Source of the DNA: Bacteroidota bacterium
GTDB lineage: Bacteria; Bacteroidota; Bacteroidia; Palsa-948
Assembly: GCA_016213405.1 (NCBI GenBank)
Contig: JACRAM010000093.1
Span: forward strand, 1-32,730
Direction: 5' to 3'
DNA: 32,730 nt
Part shown: one piece after another, positions 4,940-32,542 of the stretch
Numbering within the stretch: the first letter of the stretch is position 1
How the letters are laid out: each line of letters begins with the position of its first letter
Program-made: the position numbers and the translations under genes
Notes under the pieces: model-generated
The model's input: the letters and a program-made list of their open reading frames with translations, nothing else
Databases searched by the model: none
Told to the model about the DNA's origin: nothing

Positions 4940-6778
4940 TTACTCCCTGTTCAGAAGAATAAATTTCTGATTAACAGAAGCGTATTTGCCTGTGGCATTG
5001 ATGAAGTAAACGCCTTTTGAAACATCGCTCATATCAATGGTTATAAATACATTTTCTTTTTTCTTCACGAAGTTTTTTTCTGCATGGATTACTCTTCCTT
5101 CCAAATCCGTAATGCTTAAAACTATTTCTTCCGCCACGGGAGAAAAAATATTGAGCGATAAATTATTTTCGGAAACAGGGTTTGACTGAACAATCAGCGA
5201 CAACACGTTGTGTGCGTTTGAAAGTTTAACCGAAATAATTCCAAGTTCCTGACGCTGCCCGTTGAAATCAGTTTGCGACAACCGGTAATAATTCTGCAGC
5301 GCGGGTGATTCATCAGCAAATTCATAATTACGAATCGTGCTTGAATTGCCCGATCCGTTTATTTTTCCGATTTCAGAAAATATTTTTCCATCGGCACTGT
5401 GCTCAATAGCAAAGTAATCGTTGTTGATTTCAGTGGCGGTTGACCAGAAAAGTTTTACTGCATTGTTTTCAGTTTGCCCGGAGAAAGAAATCAGTTCGAC
5501 CGGCAAAAGGGTAACATTGCATAATGTAGGACCTCCTCCGCTTCCCGCCTGAACGGGATAAGGGCTTGATGCAGTATTATTATTTCCTAATTGGCCATTG
5601 CCACCATATCCCCAATCCCATACTGTTTGATCATTTTTTAAAGCCATGGCATGAAATCCTCCGGCACCAAGCGCGATAATGCCTGTGAGAAATCCAGGAC
5701 CACCGCTTGCATCTTTCACTTTTACCGGAACGTTACTATTAGTGGGTGAATTATTATCCCCTAATGCTCCATTGGAATTATCTCCCCATGCCCATACGGT
5801 ATTATCGCTTTTCAAAGCAAGCGAGAATCCTTCTCCGGCTTCTATAGCAATAATGTTTGTTAATCCGCTGACCTGAACAGGAAAAATACTTGTACCTCCT
5901 GTGGTGCCGTTGCCTAATTCACCAAAGAAATTTGCACCCCATGCCCAAACAGTTCCGTCATTCATTAATGCAAGAGAATGCCAGTATCCTCCTGCAACAG
6001 CAATAATGTTTGTAAGAGTGCCTGAGCCGCCTGCGCCCACTACCTGAACAGGTGCGGGTCTGGCGGTGGAAGAGTTATCTCCCAGTTGCCCATTCGAATT
6101 ATTCCCCCATGTCCATACCGTTAAATCATTTTTAAGTGCGATAGAGTGGTATCCTCCAGCGGAAATTGCGGTTATGTTGGTGAGCGTGCCAGCACCACCC
6201 GGACCAAGTACCTGCACAGGAGTTTTACTCATTGAGCCAGCAGTTGTATTATTAATTCCTAATTTGCCTGCAGTTCCATTATCTCCCCATGCCCATACGG
6301 TGTTATCATTCTTCAGAGCAATAGTATGAGAATCTCCACCGTAAACAGCCGTGATGTTGCACAAATAAGTACCGCAGCCGGATGCACCTGCTACTACTTG
6401 TACAGGATACATAGCATCGGTTTGTGTATTGTCTCCTAACTCGCCTCTTGAATTAAACCCCCAAGCCCATACAGTGTTATCATTCTTCACAGCGAGTGAA
6501 TGATAACTTCCGGCTCCAACGGCTATCATGCTGCTGAGGAATCCTGCATCGAGAGGACCGTGCACAGAAACAGGTGACGGCTGGTTTGCATTTGAGTTAT
6601 TTCCTAATGGAGCGCCTCCAAAAATGCCGCCACTCCCCCAAGCCATCACTGAATTATTGGTGCATTTTGCTATGGAATGGTAATACCCGCCTGACAGGGA
6701 TTGTGCTGACAAGCAATTCCAGCAGTAAATTGCTGTGATCAAATAAAATAAAGCAATTAAAAAAATCTTTGTTCTCAT
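4940..6778 (-). CDS. Secreted RCC1-repeat beta-propeller with T9SS type A domain
   Basis: A 612-residue protein. Residues 1-25 are a signal peptide (MRTKIFLIALFYL..., LSAQ). Residues about 26-425 hold seven RCC1-type repeats, each with the pattern G-YHSLALKNDNTVWAWG-N--GQLGDN---PVQV, enough for a seven-bladed propeller. A linker (about 430-520) begins PVELISFSGQTENNAVKLFW, a segment common before T9SS tails. The C-terminus (about 525-612) is a type A sorting domain ending GVYFINATGKYASVNQKFIL. The start codon overlaps the stop of the upstream RCC1 gene (ATGA), so the two are translationally coupled. Substrate or partner unknown; RCC1-like propellers usually bind proteins. Confidence 0.9.
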   Translation of the reverse strand: MRTKIFLIALFYLITAIYCWNCLSAQSLSGGYYHSIAKCTNNSVMAWGSGGIFGGAPLGNNSNANQPSPVSVHGPLDAGFLSSMIAVGAGSYHSLAVKNDNTVWAWGFNSRGELGDNTQTDAMYPVQVVAGASGCGTYLCNITAVYGGDSHTIALKNDNTVWAWGDNGTAGKLGINNTTAGSMSKTPVQVLGPGGAGTLTNITAISAGGYHSIALKNDLTVWTWGNNSNGQLGDNSSTARPAPVQVVGAGGSGTLTNIIAVAGGYWHSLALMNDGTVWAWGANFFGELGNGTTGGTSIFPVQVSGLTNIIAIEAGEGFSLALKSDNTVWAWGDNSNGALGDNNSPTNSNVPVKVKDASGGPGFLTGIIALGAGGFHAMALKNDQTVWDWGYGGNGQLGNNNTASSPYPVQAGSGGGPTLCNVTLLPVELISFSGQTENNAVKLFWSTATEINNDYFAIEHSADGKIFSEIGKINGSGNSSTIRNYEFADESPALQNYYRLSQTDFNGQRQELGIISVKLSNAHNVLSLIVQSNPVSENNLSLNIFSPVAEEIVLSITDLEGRVIHAEKNFVKKKENVFITIDMSDVSKGVYFINATGKYASVNQKFILLNRE

Positions 6779-8286
6779 TTTGCTGATGCTTTTACAAATT
6801 TAACTATTACTTGTTTTTCCGCACCCGAAATTCTTAATAAATAAATTCCTGATGCTGCATGTGCCAAATCAATATTCAACTTGTTTATGCCGCGTATTCC
6901 CTGAATGCTTTCTTCTTTTATTCTTCTTCCGTTCAGATCAAGAATTTCGATGCGTAGTTTTGTGTCTTCAGAAAGAAATAATGTTCCCTGCAATTCTTCG
7001 CCTGTCACAAGATTATTGAAAAACAGTTCCCAATTATTTTCCTGTGTTTGTGAAACATCTGTTGTTGAAGATGAACAAAGTCCTGCCGGCTGAACAGGGG
7101 TTAATCTTTTTGTAGTGGAATTATCTCCTATTTGACCATAGGTATTATCTCCCCATATCCAGCGTGTTCCGTCATTCTTCACAGCAAAGGAATGGATTCC
7201 TCCGCCAATAATTTCTGTAATGCCTGTGAGAAACCCTGCATTGCCAGGTCCGCGCACCTGAACCGGTGTGATTCCGTCTGTCATGGAGTTATCGCCTAAT
7301 TGCCCGTATGTATTCCATCCGCAAGCCCACACGGTGCCGTCATTTTTCAGAGCGAGAAAGTGAGATCTGCCTGAAGCAATTTTTGTAATGCCTGTTAAGA
7401 AACCGATATTTCCTGCACCATGCATTTGCACAGGAACCCATTGTTCATTCAGCGTATTATCTCCTAACTGCCCGTAATTATTCCATCCGAGAGACCACAC
7501 CGTGCCGTCATTTTTCAAAGCAAAAGAATTTACTCTTCCTGCTGCAATGCCGATAATGCCGGATAAAAATCCCATGTTGCCAGCGCCTACAATTTGAACA
7601 GGAACTGATTTGCTGATTTTTGTACTGTCGCCTAACTGTCCGTTATCATTCCATCCCCATGACCAAACGGTGCCGTCATTTTTCAAAGCAAGGCAATGAT
7701 ACCAGCCGGCAGTAACTGCAATGATGCCGGATAAAAATCCCACATCAGCAGGACCATGTACCTGAACCGGAACATAACTTGAGTTAAGTGTGTTATCGCC
7801 TAACTGCCCGTAATCATTTCTTCCCCATGTCCACACGGTACCGTCATTTTTAAGTGCGATGGAATGTCCGTATCCTCCTGCAATTGCGACAATTCCGCTT
7901 AACAATCCTATATCATTTTGTCCGTGAACAAATACCGGAGTCCATCGGTCTGTGATTGTATTATCGCCCAACTGACCGTATTGATTATTTCCCCATGTGA
8001 GAAGCGTGCCGTTATTTTTCAGAGCAAGCGAATGAGACCATCCTGCCGCAAGTGCTGTAATTCCATAATTGGCGGGGCTCATTACATCTACCGGAGACCA
8101 TCTGTCTATGATAGTGTCATCCCCTACCTGACCGAACCAGCTGTTTCCCCATGCCTGTACGGAATTATCTGAACAGAGTGCGAGCGTGTGCCCTCTGCCT
8201 GCTGCGATTGTTTGGGAAAAACTATTGTCAGATTTTCCGAAGAAGAGCAGAAAAGAAATTGCTGATGTGAAGAGAATGTTTTTCAT
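6775..8286 (-). CDS. Secreted RCC1-repeat beta-propeller with T9SS type A domain
   Basis: A 503-residue protein. Signal peptide 1-24 (AISFLLFFGKSDNSFSQ). Seven RCC1 repeats of almost exactly 56 residues follow (about 25-405). The core ALKNDGTVWSWGWNDNGQLG recurs and the DNA period is 168 bp, e.g. GTGCCGTCATTTTTC repeats near 7333, 7501 and 7669. The near-uniform units point to recent expansion or homogenisation. The C-terminus (about 420-503) is a type A sorting domain (LDLNGRRI..., SGIYLLRISGAEKQVIVKFV). It lies 3 bp after the kelch gene and overlaps the next RCC1 gene by 4 bp, so the three form one transcription unit. Confidence 0.9.
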   Translation of the reverse strand: MKNILFTSAISFLLFFGKSDNSFSQTIAAGRGHTLALCSDNSVQAWGNSWFGQVGDDTIIDRWSPVDVMSPANYGITALAAGWSHSLALKNNGTLLTWGNNQYGQLGDNTITDRWTPVFVHGQNDIGLLSGIVAIAGGYGHSIALKNDGTVWTWGRNDYGQLGDNTLNSSYVPVQVHGPADVGFLSGIIAVTAGWYHCLALKNDGTVWSWGWNDNGQLGDSTKISKSVPVQIVGAGNMGFLSGIIGIAAGRVNSFALKNDGTVWSLGWNNYGQLGDNTLNEQWVPVQMHGAGNIGFLTGITKIASGRSHFLALKNDGTVWACGWNTYGQLGDNSMTDGITPVQVRGPGNAGFLTGITEIIGGGIHSFAVKNDGTRWIWGDNTYGQIGDNSTTKRLTPVQPAGLCSSSTTDVSQTQENNWELFFNNLVTGEELQGTLFLSEDTKLRIEILDLNGRRIKEESIQGIRGINKLNIDLAHAASGIYLLRISGAEKQVIVKFVKASAK

Positions 8287-8289
8287 TTT

Positions 8290-11037
8290 TTATTTTATTA
8301 AACTGATATTCCCTTTTTTTATTACTTCTTCTCCGCTTGTCAAAGTGGCTTTCATATAATACGCAAACACAAAACTTCCTTCTGTTTGTCCCCGATAAGA
8401 ACCATCCCATTCTGAAACAGGGTCGAAGGTTTCAAAAACTTTTTCTCCCCAGCGGTTGTAAATCAAAAGCCGGAATGTTTTTATGCAAGTATAATTTCCG
8501 TAAAAGATTTTTATTACATCATTCTCTCCATCTCCATTTGGTGAAAAGGCATTCGGCAGAAAAAGTTCCCCGGTGGATGAAGTGGAACAATCAAGCGGCT
8601 CAATCGGAATAATTACGAAAACTGAAATACAGGCAGAATCAACGCATCCGTTCGCATTGGTGACTGTAACGCAATACATGGTAGTTACATTTGGAGAAAC
8701 AGTTATTGCTGCGTCCGTGCTTCCATTATTCCAATTATATGCTCCGCCACCTGTCACGCTGAGCGTAGTTGAAGCGCCCTGTGTGATGGTTGCATTGCTT
8801 CCTGCATTAACAATTGGATTTGGATTTACTGTTAAGTTCGCTGAAGTAGTATCGGAACAATTCCCTATCGAAACAACCACAGAATAATTTCCAGCTACAG
8901 AAGCGGCAATGGAAGAAGTGGTTGCGCCATTGCTCCACAAATAATTTCCTCCGCCAGATGCAGTGAGTGTTGCAACATCTCCGCTGCAGATTGTTGCGCT
9001 GCTTGCCGATGCAGAAGGAGGAGGAGAAACTGTAACTGATATACTCGTATCATCCGCGCAAGAACCTGACGAGACAGAAACAGAATAAGAAGTATTGGAA
9101 GATGGAGTAACAACAATGGAAGATGTTGTCATCCCTGTGTTCCAACTGAAAATATTTCCACCCGATGCGGTCAGCGTGGTAGTTTGTCCGATGCATAATA
9201 ATGTGCTCCCGCTCACGGATGCCGTAATAGCAGCAACAATTGATACCGTTGCAGAAACCGTAGTTGTTCCGCAGCCGTTTGCAACCACTACATTATAAGC
9301 AGTGCTTGAAGTTGGAGAGACAATAATAGATGAAGTTGTCTGCCCTCCGGGAATCCATGAATAGGTTCCACCACCTGAAGCAATGAGCGTAGCAGCATCA
9401 CCGATACAGATGCTTGCATTGCCTGCCGACACCACGGGCATAGGAGAAACTGTAACCAATATACTGGTATCATCCGAACACAAACCGGATGACACGGAAA
9501 CAGAATATGATGTACTGGCAGTTGGAGTAACAACAATGAACGATGAAGTTGCGCCAGTATTCCAACTGTAGTTATTTCCTCCCGAAGCGTTGAGCGTGGC
9601 GCTTTGTCCGGAACACAATGAAGTATTTCCGCTTACAATGGCAACAACTCCTGATGAAATTGTTACAGTAGCTGAAACGGTAGTTGTTCCACAGCTATTT
9701 GCAACGACAGCAGAATAGGTAGTGGTAACAGTTGGAGTTACGATAACAGATGAAGTGGTTTGTCCTCCCGGAATCCATGAATATGTTCCTCCTCCTGATG
9801 CAGTAAGCGTAGCGGATTGCCCCGAACAGATACTTGTGCTTCCTGAAATAGTTGCCGCTGATGATTGCAGAACAACTACCGTAATATTTCCTGCAGAGGC
9901 GCAGGAACTTGTCGGATCAATTGCAGAATAAGATGTCGTAGCGGTTGGCGAAACAACAATGGATGAAGTAGTTGCGCCAGTATTCCAGCTGTAACTGCTT
10001 CCTCCTGTTGCGATAATAGTAGTGCTGCTTCCGAGGCAAATTGTATCAGGAATTGCAGTTACAGAAACAGATGCGCCCATGCTGAATTCCCACCAGTCAT
10101 TATAAAGCGTCCACTCCCACTGCCCGTTGACTAAAGTCAAAGAAGTATCCATGCCAGTTCCAATATATGCTTTATTGTTCAGCACAATAACAGAAGCATC
10201 TGTTCTGCCCGGCATGGGAAAAGATGTGGCGAATGTCCAGAAATTTGTGGTTGGATCATACTGCCAGAAATCTGTGTATGGCACACTGGTGCCATTGTAG
10301 ATTCCCATTCCAACAAATCCTTTGTTGCAAATTGAAAAACCGATTGCGCCCCAACGCCCAAGTGTGGGAATGTTTGCCTTTTGCGACCACGTATCTGTTG
10401 TAGAATTATATTCCCACCAGTCATTGTATTTCACGCCAGTGGCTTGATCCCATCCTGTTCCCCAATACGCTTTATTTCCTATGACAAAAGTGGCGCGGTC
10501 AACATCAATACGCTTTCCGCCTGAAAAATTTCCCATTTGTGTCCATGTATTATTTGCAGGGTCGTATCGCCAAAAATCGGCAAGGCAGTTTGCATTCCAG
10601 TCAAAACCTGTACCTATGTAACCATATCCTCCTACTGAAAAACCTGAAGCAGTTGCCCGGATAACGCCTCCCATGTTTGCCTTTTGTGTCCAGGTATTTG
10701 CAACGGGATCATATTCCCAAAAATCGTTTTGAAACATTCCGTTTGTTCCGCAGCCAAAATAGCCCCTTACGCCAATGGAAAAACCAAGCGCGAAGTTTCG
10801 GGGACCTCCTAAAAAGTTTGCTTTCTGAGTCCAACTGTCTGTGGCTGGATCATATTCCCAAAAGTCATCTGTATAGCCACTATAAGTATTTCCGGCACCA
10901 ATATATCCTTTATTACCAATGGGAAATGCAACTGCTGCTAATCGCCCATTGGCAGGCAAAGAAGCTTTCTGAACCCAGGTTTGCCCAATTAAAGCGAGGT
11001 GAAATATCGCCAGCGTGAAAGTTATTATTAGTCTCAT
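8290..11037 (-). CDS. Secreted kelch plus Ig-like protein with T9SS type B domain
   Basis: A 915-residue protein. Residues 1-19 are a signal peptide. About 20-335 form six kelch repeats (DFWEYDPATDSWTQKANF type, with G-GYIGAG strands), a six-bladed propeller. About 340-820 contain seven Ig-like repeats with the signature C-G-SATLTASGG--YSWNTGATTSSIVVTP--T--Y-V. The central four are two copies of a two-domain unit, with an exact 420-bp DNA period. The last ~90 residues (LPNAFSPNGDGENDV, IYNRWGEKVFET, WDGSYRG, ending KGNISLIK) are a type B T9SS tail of the gliding-motility CHU_C kind. Cargo of this type usually stays on the surface. It is the first gene of the three-propeller operon. Confidence 0.92.
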   Translation of the reverse strand: MRLIITFTLAIFHLALIGQTWVQKASLPANGRLAAVAFPIGNKGYIGAGNTYSGYTDDFWEYDPATDSWTQKANFLGGPRNFALGFSIGVRGYFGCGTNGMFQNDFWEYDPVANTWTQKANMGGVIRATASGFSVGGYGYIGTGFDWNANCLADFWRYDPANNTWTQMGNFSGGKRIDVDRATFVIGNKAYWGTGWDQATGVKYNDWWEYNSTTDTWSQKANIPTLGRWGAIGFSICNKGFVGMGIYNGTSVPYTDFWQYDPTTNFWTFATSFPMPGRTDASVIVLNNKAYIGTGMDTSLTLVNGQWEWTLYNDWWEFSMGASVSVTAIPDTICLGSSTTIIATGGSSYSWNTGATTSSIVVSPTATTSYSAIDPTSSCASAGNITVVVLQSSAATISGSTSICSGQSATLTASGGGTYSWIPGGQTTSSVIVTPTVTTTYSAVVANSCGTTTVSATVTISSGVVAIVSGNTSLCSGQSATLNASGGNNYSWNTGATSSFIVVTPTASTSYSVSVSSGLCSDDTSILVTVSPMPVVSAGNASICIGDAATLIASGGGTYSWIPGGQTTSSIIVSPTSSTAYNVVVANGCGTTTVSATVSIVAAITASVSGSTLLCIGQTTTLTASGGNIFSWNTGMTTSSIVVTPSSNTSYSVSVSSGSCADDTSISVTVSPPPSASASSATICSGDVATLTASGGGNYLWSNGATTSSIAASVAGNYSVVVSIGNCSDTTSANLTVNPNPIVNAGSNATITQGASTTLSVTGGGAYNWNNGSTDAAITVSPNVTTMYCVTVTNANGCVDSACISVFVIIPIEPLDCSTSSTGELFLPNAFSPNGDGENDVIKIFYGNYTCIKTFRLLIYNRWGEKVFETFDPVSEWDGSYRGQTEGSFVFAYYMKATLTSGEEVIKKGNISLIK
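9023..9890 (-). repeat. Tandem 420-bp repeat encoding two-domain Ig-like units
   Basis: Landmarks recur with a spacing of exactly 420 bp: GGAGAAACTGTAAC at 9023 and 9443, and GTAGTTGTTCC at about 9260 and 9680. The encoded 140-residue unit pairs an A-type domain (GGGTYSWIPGGQTTSS, then CGTTTVSATV) with a B-type domain (SWNTG..., CxDDTSI). Confidence 0.8.
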
Positions 11038-30958: not shown

Positions 30959-31246
30959 TTACTTGGGCTTTACAATTGCTTCTTTCTTTTTGTTTTTTTC
31001 TTCTTCCTTTTTTTTCTCTTGTTCAAAATATAATTGTTGGTCTCTCACATCAATTACTTCATGCCGAACAGGGATATCAGGGTTTATTTTATCTTCTGCT
31101 TTTGAAGAACCTACATCAATTTGTTTTTCTGAATTTTCGAAGTAAATATCTGGCTTTTGCTCAGCGGTCTTCTGCGTTTGCCCGCTCTGCGCAAAACACC
31201 AGCAGGATATAAAGAAAGAAAAAAGAAATGTAAAAAATAGTTTCAT
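30959..31246 (-). CDS. Small exported charged protein of unknown function
   Basis: A 95-residue protein with a signal peptide (MKLFFTFLFSFFISCWCFAQ). The mature part is very polar: SGQTQKTAEQKPDIYFENSE, then VRHEVIDVRDQQLYFEQEKK and a lysine/glutamate run (KKEEEKNKKKEAIVKPK) that could form a short coiled coil. No T9SS tail, so it should stay in the periplasm unless the Cys residues in the signal act as a lipobox, which seems poor. It is the first gene of a two-gene unit with the frameshifted cargo gene. A perfect -7 box lies 29 bp upstream, and a 21-bp-period paired motif about 100 bp upstream. Confidence 0.7.
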   Translation of the reverse strand: MKLFFTFLFSFFISCWCFAQSGQTQKTAEQKPDIYFENSEKQIDVGSSKAEDKINPDIPVRHEVIDVRDQQLYFEQEKKKEEEKNKKKEAIVKPK

Positions 31247-31275: not shown

Positions 31276-31283
31276 CAAATTTA
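31276..31283 (-). promoter_or_regulatory. -7 box TAAATTTG for the 30959-31246 gene
   Basis: A perfect TAnnTTTG match 29 bp upstream of the ATG. TTTG at 31311-31308 is 24 bp further upstream, a little far for a -33. Confidence 0.5.
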
Positions 31284-31342
31284 TGCAATCAATAGGTAAT
31301 AGTATGACAAATGGCAGGATATTTATCATCCCCCCCCAGCTT

Positions 31343-31371
31343 TTAGACGAATGACAGGTTTTCTTAGACGA
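31343..31371 (-). promoter_or_regulatory. Paired motif TTAGACGA, 21-bp period
   Basis: TTAGACGA at 31343-31350 and 31364-31371, with starts exactly 21 bp apart, two helical turns. It is enclosed by inverted arms ATCCCCCC (31328-31335) and GGGGGGAT (31374-31381). The second copy begins 118 bp upstream of the 31246 start codon. A related pair occurs at 32452-32480. Confidence 0.5.
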
Positions 31372-31396
31372 GTGGGGGGATTCCTGTAAGTTGTAA

Positions 31397-31414
31397 CTGC
31401 TCCTTGCGGAGCAG
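31397..31414. terminator. Hairpin after the MORN gene
   Basis: CTGCTCC-TTGC-GGAGCAG, a perfect 7-bp stem 27 bp past the MORN stop codon. No T-run follows on the minus strand, so a terminator role is uncertain. Confidence 0.4.
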
Positions 31415-31440
31415 ATGAAATTCTCTAGCAGATCCCAGCG

Positions 31441-32355
31441 CTATTTGTCGGTTGCTTCAATGGGCGCTTCGCCCACATATTTGCCGTCTTTGTAAAAAGA
31501 GATGTGCTCAAGCATGCCGGCTGTGTTGTAGATATAATCCTTGCCATCTATCAGGCGGAAATTTTTAAACGTGCCGTCCTTTGACATCTGCCTGTTCTGG
31601 TTAAAAAGTTTGGCGTAGCCGTTTCCGTCAAAGGGTTTTTGCGCTTCGTTTGTTTTTTCGGTTTTCGCATCCGCCATTTTGGCCGGCTCTTTTGTTGCAG
31701 TGGTTTCGGTTTTAACTATCATTTCTTTTTTCGGCTCAAACAATTTTGTTTTTTCCTCGTCCAGCGTTCCATCGTTAAATACTTTTTCATCGCGCTTGTC
31801 GCCATTTTCATAATAGCCCACCCAGGTGCCGGCTTCTTTTCCTTCTTTCATTTCTCCTTTCATCATCAGCTGCCCGTTATCGTAATAATAGGTTTGCTCA
31901 CCCTCTCTTTTTCCTCCTTTGGTATATTTGAAATCACAAAACGTCTGCCCGTTCTCGTGGTAGGATTTGAATTCTCCCACCCAGCGGTTGTTTTCCCACA
32001 CGCCTTCCTCCATCAGTTTTCCGTTTTCCTGATACATTTTTGCATATCCGCTTGCGCGGTTGTTGGTATAGGTGATTTCTCCTTTCAGGTTTCCATTCGG
32101 AAAATAGGTTTTCCAGATGCCGGCTTTTTTGCTGTCGGCATAATTGCCCTCTTCCACTTTTGCATCAGTGGGATAGTTGGGAAGTTTTTTGATGCTGTTG
32201 AATACAATCCAATAGCCCTGCCGGAGCCCCGCAGCATCCACCGCGTTGAGCGTGTCGCCAGCATAAACATACGATGCCTGAAAGAAAATAAAAAGGATTA
32301 CCAGTTTATGGAGAAGATTTTTGGAGAAGATTTTTTCAGCCGCCATTTCTTTCAT
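31441..32355 (-). CDS. Exported MORN-repeat protein (YwqK-like)
   Basis: A 304-residue protein with a signal peptide (about 1-32, LVILFIFFQASYVYA). Residues about 40-210 hold several MORN_2-type repeats of the YwqK kind: AGIWKTYFPNGNLKGEITY, ASGYAKMYQENGKLMEEGVW, GEFKSYHENGQTFCDFKY, GEQTYYYDNGQLMMKGEM and GTWVGYYENGDKRDEKVF. A low-complexity Lys/Thr/Glu/Ala linker (about 215-245) leads to further half repeats (FDGNGYAKLFNQNRQMSKDG). Such proteins are common in Bacteroidota and often named antitoxin by transfer from Bacillus YwqK, which is not supported here. The related paired motif lies 118 bp upstream of this start too. Confidence 0.87.
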   Translation of the reverse strand: MKEMAAEKIFSKNLLHKLVILFIFFQASYVYAGDTLNAVDAAGLRQGYWIVFNSIKKLPNYPTDAKVEEGNYADSKKAGIWKTYFPNGNLKGEITYTNNRASGYAKMYQENGKLMEEGVWENNRWVGEFKSYHENGQTFCDFKYTKGGKREGEQTYYYDNGQLMMKGEMKEGKEAGTWVGYYENGDKRDEKVFNDGTLDEEKTKLFEPKKEMIVKTETTATKEPAKMADAKTEKTNEAQKPFDGNGYAKLFNQNRQMSKDGTFKNFRLIDGKDYIYNTAGMLEHISFYKDGKYVGEAPIEATDK

Positions 32356-32451
32356 CTGTAAATTATTTTTTTACGAAGCGGATCACTGCCATCAATAGAA
32401 CAGGCGAATATCTAAACAAAAATCGGGAAAGTCCTAATGATCAGGCAACAT

Positions 32452-32480
32452 TTCGACCAGTTGTTGTTTTTCTTAGATGA
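32452..32480 (-). promoter_or_regulatory. Paired motif TTCGACCA / TTAGATGA, 21-bp period
   Basis: A degenerate relative of 31343-31371: 20 of 29 positions agree, including TTTTC-TTAGA-GA at the right half. It has the same 21-bp period and the right half again begins 118 bp upstream of the start codon, here that of the MORN gene. Confidence 0.45.
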
Positions 32481-32496
32481 AATAGGCGCTCTACAT

Positions 32497-32542
32497 CCTC
32501 CCGATAGTGCCGAAGGCACTCCTTCGGAGCTATCGGGGGAGG
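32497..32542. repeat. Large hairpin upstream of the MORN gene
   Basis: CCTCCCGATAG (32497-32507) pairs with CTATCGGGGGAGG (32530-32542, one bulge pair), enclosing an inner CCGAAGG-CACT-CCTTCGG hairpin. ACTCCTTCGGAGC is shared with the 23-bp repeat in hemH. It could be a terminator for a plus-strand transcript (TTTT follows) but no plus-strand gene precedes it; a repeat-family member is likelier. Confidence 0.6.

Follow-up and report, generated by a model that had tools for sequence, protein, structure and literature searches.

The window, by which we mean the whole 32,730-nt stretch of Bacteroidota DNA that was analysed, carries two genes on its reverse strand that are each preceded by a pair of short direct repeats. 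Gene 1 (P0001) lies at 30959-31246 (-); its 95-aa product belongs to no Pfam family and, as judged by eye, has a signal-like N-terminus. Gene 2 (P0002) lies at 31441-32355 (-), and its product is an exported protein of 304 aa that contains MORN_2 repeats. Site 1, upstream of gene 1, occupies 31343-31371 (-), with the near half-site at 31343-31350 and the far half-site at 31364-31371; it reads TTAGACGA-N13-TTAGACGA on the forward strand and TCGTCTAA-N13-TCGTCTAA in the gene direction. Site 2, upstream of gene 2, occupies 32452-32480 (-), with the near half-site at 32452-32459 and the far half-site at 32473-32480, and reads TTCGACCA-N13-TTAGATGA on the forward strand and TCATCTAA-N13-TGGTCGAA in the gene direction. 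The original prediction had recognized both pairs at these coordinates, and our hand count agrees with it that 20 of 29 positions are identical. It had also pointed to an equal distance of 118 bp from each pair to the start codon. The measurement itself holds (near edges of the far half-sites at 31364 and 32473, gene starts at 31246 and 32355), but the agreement is a coincidence: across the regulon, the sites stand at widely differing distances from the ATG.

Site 1 is further enclosed by an 8-nt inverted repeat (31328-31335 and 31374-31381), described earlier as C8 and G6 arms. The arms exist but are absent from the other sites, and a structural role for them was rejected on this ground. Just upstream of site 2, an inverted repeat with nearly perfect arms of 17 nt, separated by 4 nt, spans positions 32500-32537; an exact 18-nt stretch of it occurs, among 278 loci, only at this same position.

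In the gene direction, the full motif reads TTCGTCTAA-N12-TTCGTCTAA, with some spacer letters conserved as well. The information content over 43 sites resolves two copies of (CCA)TTCGTCTAAAA, of which GTC is the steadiest part, separated by a spacer that is A/T-rich and then C-rich. The repeat may be written as an 8-nt core with N13 or as a 10-nt core with N11, and its period in the aligned sites is 21 bp, with 18-bp exceptions in the P0002 family. In some places, three or four half-sites follow one another at 21-bp intervals (for example, L038 and L172). A possible weak third half-site lies between site 1 and its promoter box at 31303-31323 (-), where the gene direction reads CCATTTGTC; it is the third copy (67%) in the 21-mer repeat family D1, and the sister-species profile R3 described below matches it at 31306-31324 (-) with an E-value of only 0.4.

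The extended motif differs in its behaviour from the loose TTAGANGA pair originally put forward for a genome scan, which showed no enrichment. At up to two mismatches, the loose pair gave 65 matches against 114 for a reversed-pattern control, and at up to three mismatches with the C fixed it gave 39 against 107 over the whole genome, the control differing in codon content and its count being possibly inflated. Within the window, 6 matches were found against 3.9 expected. The top loose-pattern matches share the extended motif; nearly all of them are intergenic, with the downstream gene in one orientation. Six matches inside long ORFs (L035, L042, L043, L045, L046 and L049) were dropped before alignment A1 was made, and the intergenic counts for this genome are therefore biased. 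The sister-species counts carry no such filter, and none of the 24 sister sites examined, out of 31, falls inside an ORF of at least 100 aa. Three weak rows (L040, L044 and L047) were left out of alignment A2, and the site lookup in loci L055-L084 covered plus-strand rows.

Profile searches reveal that the motif is concentrated in one genus. Profile R1, built from the sequences of 18 sites of this genome, gave 36 matches here at E <= 10, 21 of them at E <= 0.01. Searched against 295 genomes of the class, the same profile matched 31 times in six sister species (6, 6, 4, 4, 1 and 10), an average of 5.2 per sister genome, compared with 0.24 per genome outside the genus (68 matches in 288 genomes). 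Similarly, profile R2, built from 40 sites, matched 55 times within the genus (seven genomes) and 13 times among 31 other genomes. Among the best 24 loci outside the genus, the promoter box described below stands at 37-39 nt in one, which is the background level. One genome of another family (G029; loci L110, L227 and L241) has up to four weak motif matches, and neither of the two places read there has the promoter box at that spacing.

Profile R3 was made from 21 sister-species sites, leaving out the two orthologues of the window genes; these sites had originally been found with a profile trained on the sites of this genome, the two of the window included. It matches site 1 at 31337-31377 (-) with E = 2e-9 and site 2 at 32444-32485 (-) with E = 4.3e-7, and the third-ranked of the 31 matches listed in the window has E = 0.3. 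Judged by their sequence, the window pairs are a real, shared, direct-repeat regulatory site and not a product of chance.

The sites are positioned with respect to the promoter. Past the near half-site, at 37-39 nt or at one or two further periods of 21 bp, stands a TAnnTTTG box, which we take to be the -7 element of the main Bacteroidota promoter. Over 45 sites, 13 perfect boxes were found, eight of them at 37-39 nt, two at 59 nt and one each at 80, 15 and 34 nt, so that 11 of the 13 stand at 37-39, 59 or 80 nt. In this genome, at least five of the six box letters are present at 37-40 nt in 9 of 24 sites, whereas the median for 4-nt windows at other positions is 1. The spacing was first noticed by eye in this genome, and the sister species offer a cleaner test: of 24 sites examined among the 31 found there, 13 have at least five of six letters at 37-39 nt, whereas 3-nt windows placed at other offsets have a median of 1. 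After similar downstream sequences were merged, the box is present in 14 of 33 clusters, compared with a background of 3.7% (binomial p ~4e-12). A good box at 37-39 nt is missing in 24 of the 45 sites, window site 2 included. By the -7 numbering that we assume, the pair centre in the 38-nt class would lie near -64.

At site 1, a perfect box, TAAATTTG at 31276-31283 (-), lies 59 nt (38 + 21) past the near half-site, and a weak alternative with 4 of 6 letters, TACTATTA at 31297-31304 (-), lies 38 nt past it. Site 2 has a weak box of 4 of 6 letters, TAGATATT at 32407-32414 (-), 37 nt past the site, and no better one at 37-39, 59 or 80 nt. The orthologue of gene 1 in G006 carries its box, TATCTTTG, at 80 nt (38 + 42), and TATCTTTG occurs in Bacteroides promoters according to the part of the source available (PMC6193735). 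In L172, the 59-nt case was counted from the middle of three half-sites, and the box lies 38 nt past the last one. The distance to the promoter box, and not that to the start codon, is the key distance.

The sites are retained at orthologous promoters, where the half-sites are kept and the remainder has diverged. The P0002 family has nine close members in the seven genomes, and an intact TCGTCTAA is found upstream of eight of them, the window copy having TGGTCGAA. A TAnnTTT-like box stands 38-39 nt downstream of most of these sites, and the far half-site is often 18 bp away instead of 21 bp, or weak. The ~18-bp far half-site was read in several P0002-family promoters (L177, L179, L180, L181 and L182); a spacing of 18-21 bp is reported for the repeats of CoxC in the available part of PMC11347149, close to this value. 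P0001 has a single orthologue, in G006 (E = 3.5e-8), with an intact site upstream (L157/L205). Furthermore, the gene for a 98-aa protein has the site upstream in G000, G002, G003, G004 and G006, and G005 retains the site and the same promoter stretch alone (L229).

A downstream reading frame follows 22 of the 24 sites of this genome, and 14 of these 22 start in a signal-like manner, as judged by eye. A Pfam search of 18 target proteins identified T9SS tails (two proteins), CHU_C with SprB and PKD, SLT with LysM, SLT with SBP_bac_3, MORN_2 (two proteins), MAM, Sortilin-Vps10 and one RecQ helicase, and the rest have no family. The expectation that the sites precede exported-protein genes is thereby borne out, the regulon being mostly exported (T9SS cargo, SprB-repeat, LysM/SLT and MORN_2 proteins). 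Elsewhere in the window, positions 4940-11037 contain a tandem series of genes whose exported products, RCC1-like and kelch-like, have T9SS-like ends, as judged by eye. The architecture described here is that of a site preceding exported-protein genes in an uncultured Bacteroidota group, with its spacing to the promoter fixed. With the operator defined and its distance to the promoter box known, the regulon of surface and secreted proteins becomes concrete and open to testing, and the operator also offers a route to the regulator.

Each pair would be the operator of a dimeric transcription activator, formed by two (CCA)TTCGTCTAAAA half-sites arranged head to tail with a 21-bp period. With the box 37-39 nt away or 21-bp steps further, the bound protein and RNA polymerase would face each other along one side of the helix, and an activator acting from upstream of the promoter is likely. 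Whereas motif, intergenic place, orientation, box spacing and conservation were computed, we infer activation, regulator family and regulator identity, and the operator probably serves a dimeric activator of the LytTR type. The regulon would be restricted to the genus as sampled and would consist mostly of exported proteins. The combined architecture of operator and promoter is real and, as sampled, limited to the genus, and its general kind is already known.

Known operators were compared through those parts of the published reports that were available, and the statements below apply to these parts. LytTR operators consist of two 9-11-nt repeats with 11-13-nt spacers and have no common consensus (PMC4847170). 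The aligned genus sites are built in this way, with an 8-nt core and N13 or a 10-nt core and N11; they lie upstream of -35 and are centred near -60 on our assumed -7 numbering (the box following 37-39 nt on in the 14 of 33 clusters), and a LytTR regulator is encoded in all seven genomes in which they occur. The core bound by AlgR of Pseudomonas aeruginosa, CCGTTCGTC, with the variants CCGTTCATC and CCGTTTGTC (PMC4064291), can be set against the genus CCATTCGTC; a G or an A is accepted at the corresponding position, and 8 of 9 bases of the core agree with the genus half-site (p ~0.001, uncorrected for the several published motifs compared). AlgR differs in that its sites do not have to form direct repeats and their distances are scattered (PMC4064291), whereas the genus sites are phased pairs near the promoter. 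The yhjX promoter bound by YpdB of E. coli has GGCATTTCAT-N11-GGCATTTCAT, again direct repeats with a 21-bp period, and YpdB belongs to a two-component pair with a LytS-type kinase (PMC4847170). The YpdB and genus half-sites agree at 5 of 10 positions (p 0.7), and their similarity by eye is not beyond chance. YpdB also differs in having few targets.

An LRS proper is a self-regulated operon that encodes a soluble LytTR regulator and a membrane protein. Within the same phylum, the LRS-like LytTR operons of Bacteroides carry 11-bp direct repeats with N11 upstream of a TATCTTTG promoter, the end of the repeat lying 34 nt from the box compared with ~40 nt in the genus, in the same register (PMC6193735). 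These operons differ in that a single operon, which includes a membrane-protein partner, is predicted to control itself, whereas the genus has many targets and no autoregulation was seen; no site lies near the REC-less LytTR gene of G000 (L218) or near the scanned sister ones. At P2 and P3, AgrA of Staphylococcus aureus binds as a dimer to direct repeats whose centre lies near -60 (PMC4227749). It differs from the genus system in its half-site and its promoter type. In the literature searched, as far as it was available, no paper gave an operator of such kind for a Bacteroidota LytTR regulator.

Would another protein fit the same layout? An activator of a different family, neither LytTR nor AraC, for instance with an undescribed DNA-binding domain, would suit the finding that the motif neither stands beside nor controls any regulator gene checked, and the genus half-site is only modestly like LytTR half-sites. 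Yet LytTR would suit the direct repeats with their 21-bp period, their position near -60 and the core like that of AlgR, and one LytTR orthologue is present in all seven genomes; we regard a different family as the less likely reading. AraC-type (HTCS) activators also bind direct repeats about 21 bp apart, and the AraC HTH (PF12833) is present in five of the seven genomes. However, two site-bearing genomes, G003 (98% complete, four sites) and G006 (100% complete, ten sites), have no PF12833 match; an AraC regulator was rejected as nearly refuted and retains almost no probability.

The pairs might instead be repressor operators or dual sites, as CoxC, which is also of the LytTR type, acts as a repressor at a set of three direct repeats that overlap -35 (PMC11347149, available part). 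The genus pair lies upstream of the promoter core and not over it, and the phase of the box is kept at 38, 59 and 80 nt, which fits contact with polymerase; repression or a dual role is quite improbable. The remaining alternative, a chance likeness or copies of a duplicated promoter segment maintained without selection, would account for the similar flanks of some sites (L031, L037 and others cluster) and for the lack of enrichment of the loose pattern. It does not account for 33 clusters of unlike downstream sequence that share motif and box spacing, or for half-sites kept in orthologous promoters while the rest diverges, and this cross-species conservation refutes it, leaving it highly improbable.

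LytTR regulators are common in Bacteroidota, and the LytTR-type dimeric activator of the original prediction remains the best available candidate. The geometry fits, but no LytTR operon read carries the motif, so that the protein that uses the sites is probably, though not firmly, assigned to the LytTR type. Nor did any regulator gene checked share the motif, as had been suggested it might: no site was found upstream of the LytTR and partner-kinase operons read, among which L129 has one weak 14-bit partial match.

One LytTR orthologous group is present in all seven genomes (L052, L139, L140, L142, L143, L144 and L147); L145, whose reading frame is doubtful, was left out of the LytTR protein comparison. 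The genes of this group adjoin one for a large sensor kinase, to which Pfam assigns Reg_prop/Y_Y_Y/His_kinase in G000, and an HPPD-like gene lies close by. The activator would be a LytTR-type response regulator, with L052 and its six orthologues beside the propeller-type kinase as the best single candidate. The L052 pair is a plausible regulator, with somewhat less than even expectation on our part. G005 has the same orthologue yet only 1-2 sites. More tentatively, the Reg_prop kinase and the L052-type regulator could run a genus-wide surface regulon in which the distance from operator to box is quantised at 38, 59 and 80 nt, half-sites being gained or lost as whole units and the helix face being kept.

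Small receiver-less LytTR proteins, mutually divergent, occur in several species (L054, L148, L149, L150, L151, L152, L153 and perhaps L146), and the motif was not found beside those of their genes that were scanned. A second LytTR group is present in the six sisters and absent from this genome, which has the most sites, and is therefore not required. In sister species, this second regulator stands in a conserved gene row (L213, L214 and L215) with the order NadA-like, MORN_2 protein, sensor kinase, LytTR and TPR-like, the NadA and TPR assignments being made by eye; the kinase in L213 has PAS and HisKA_2 by Pfam. The MORN_2 link between this row and gene 2 of the window may be more than chance.
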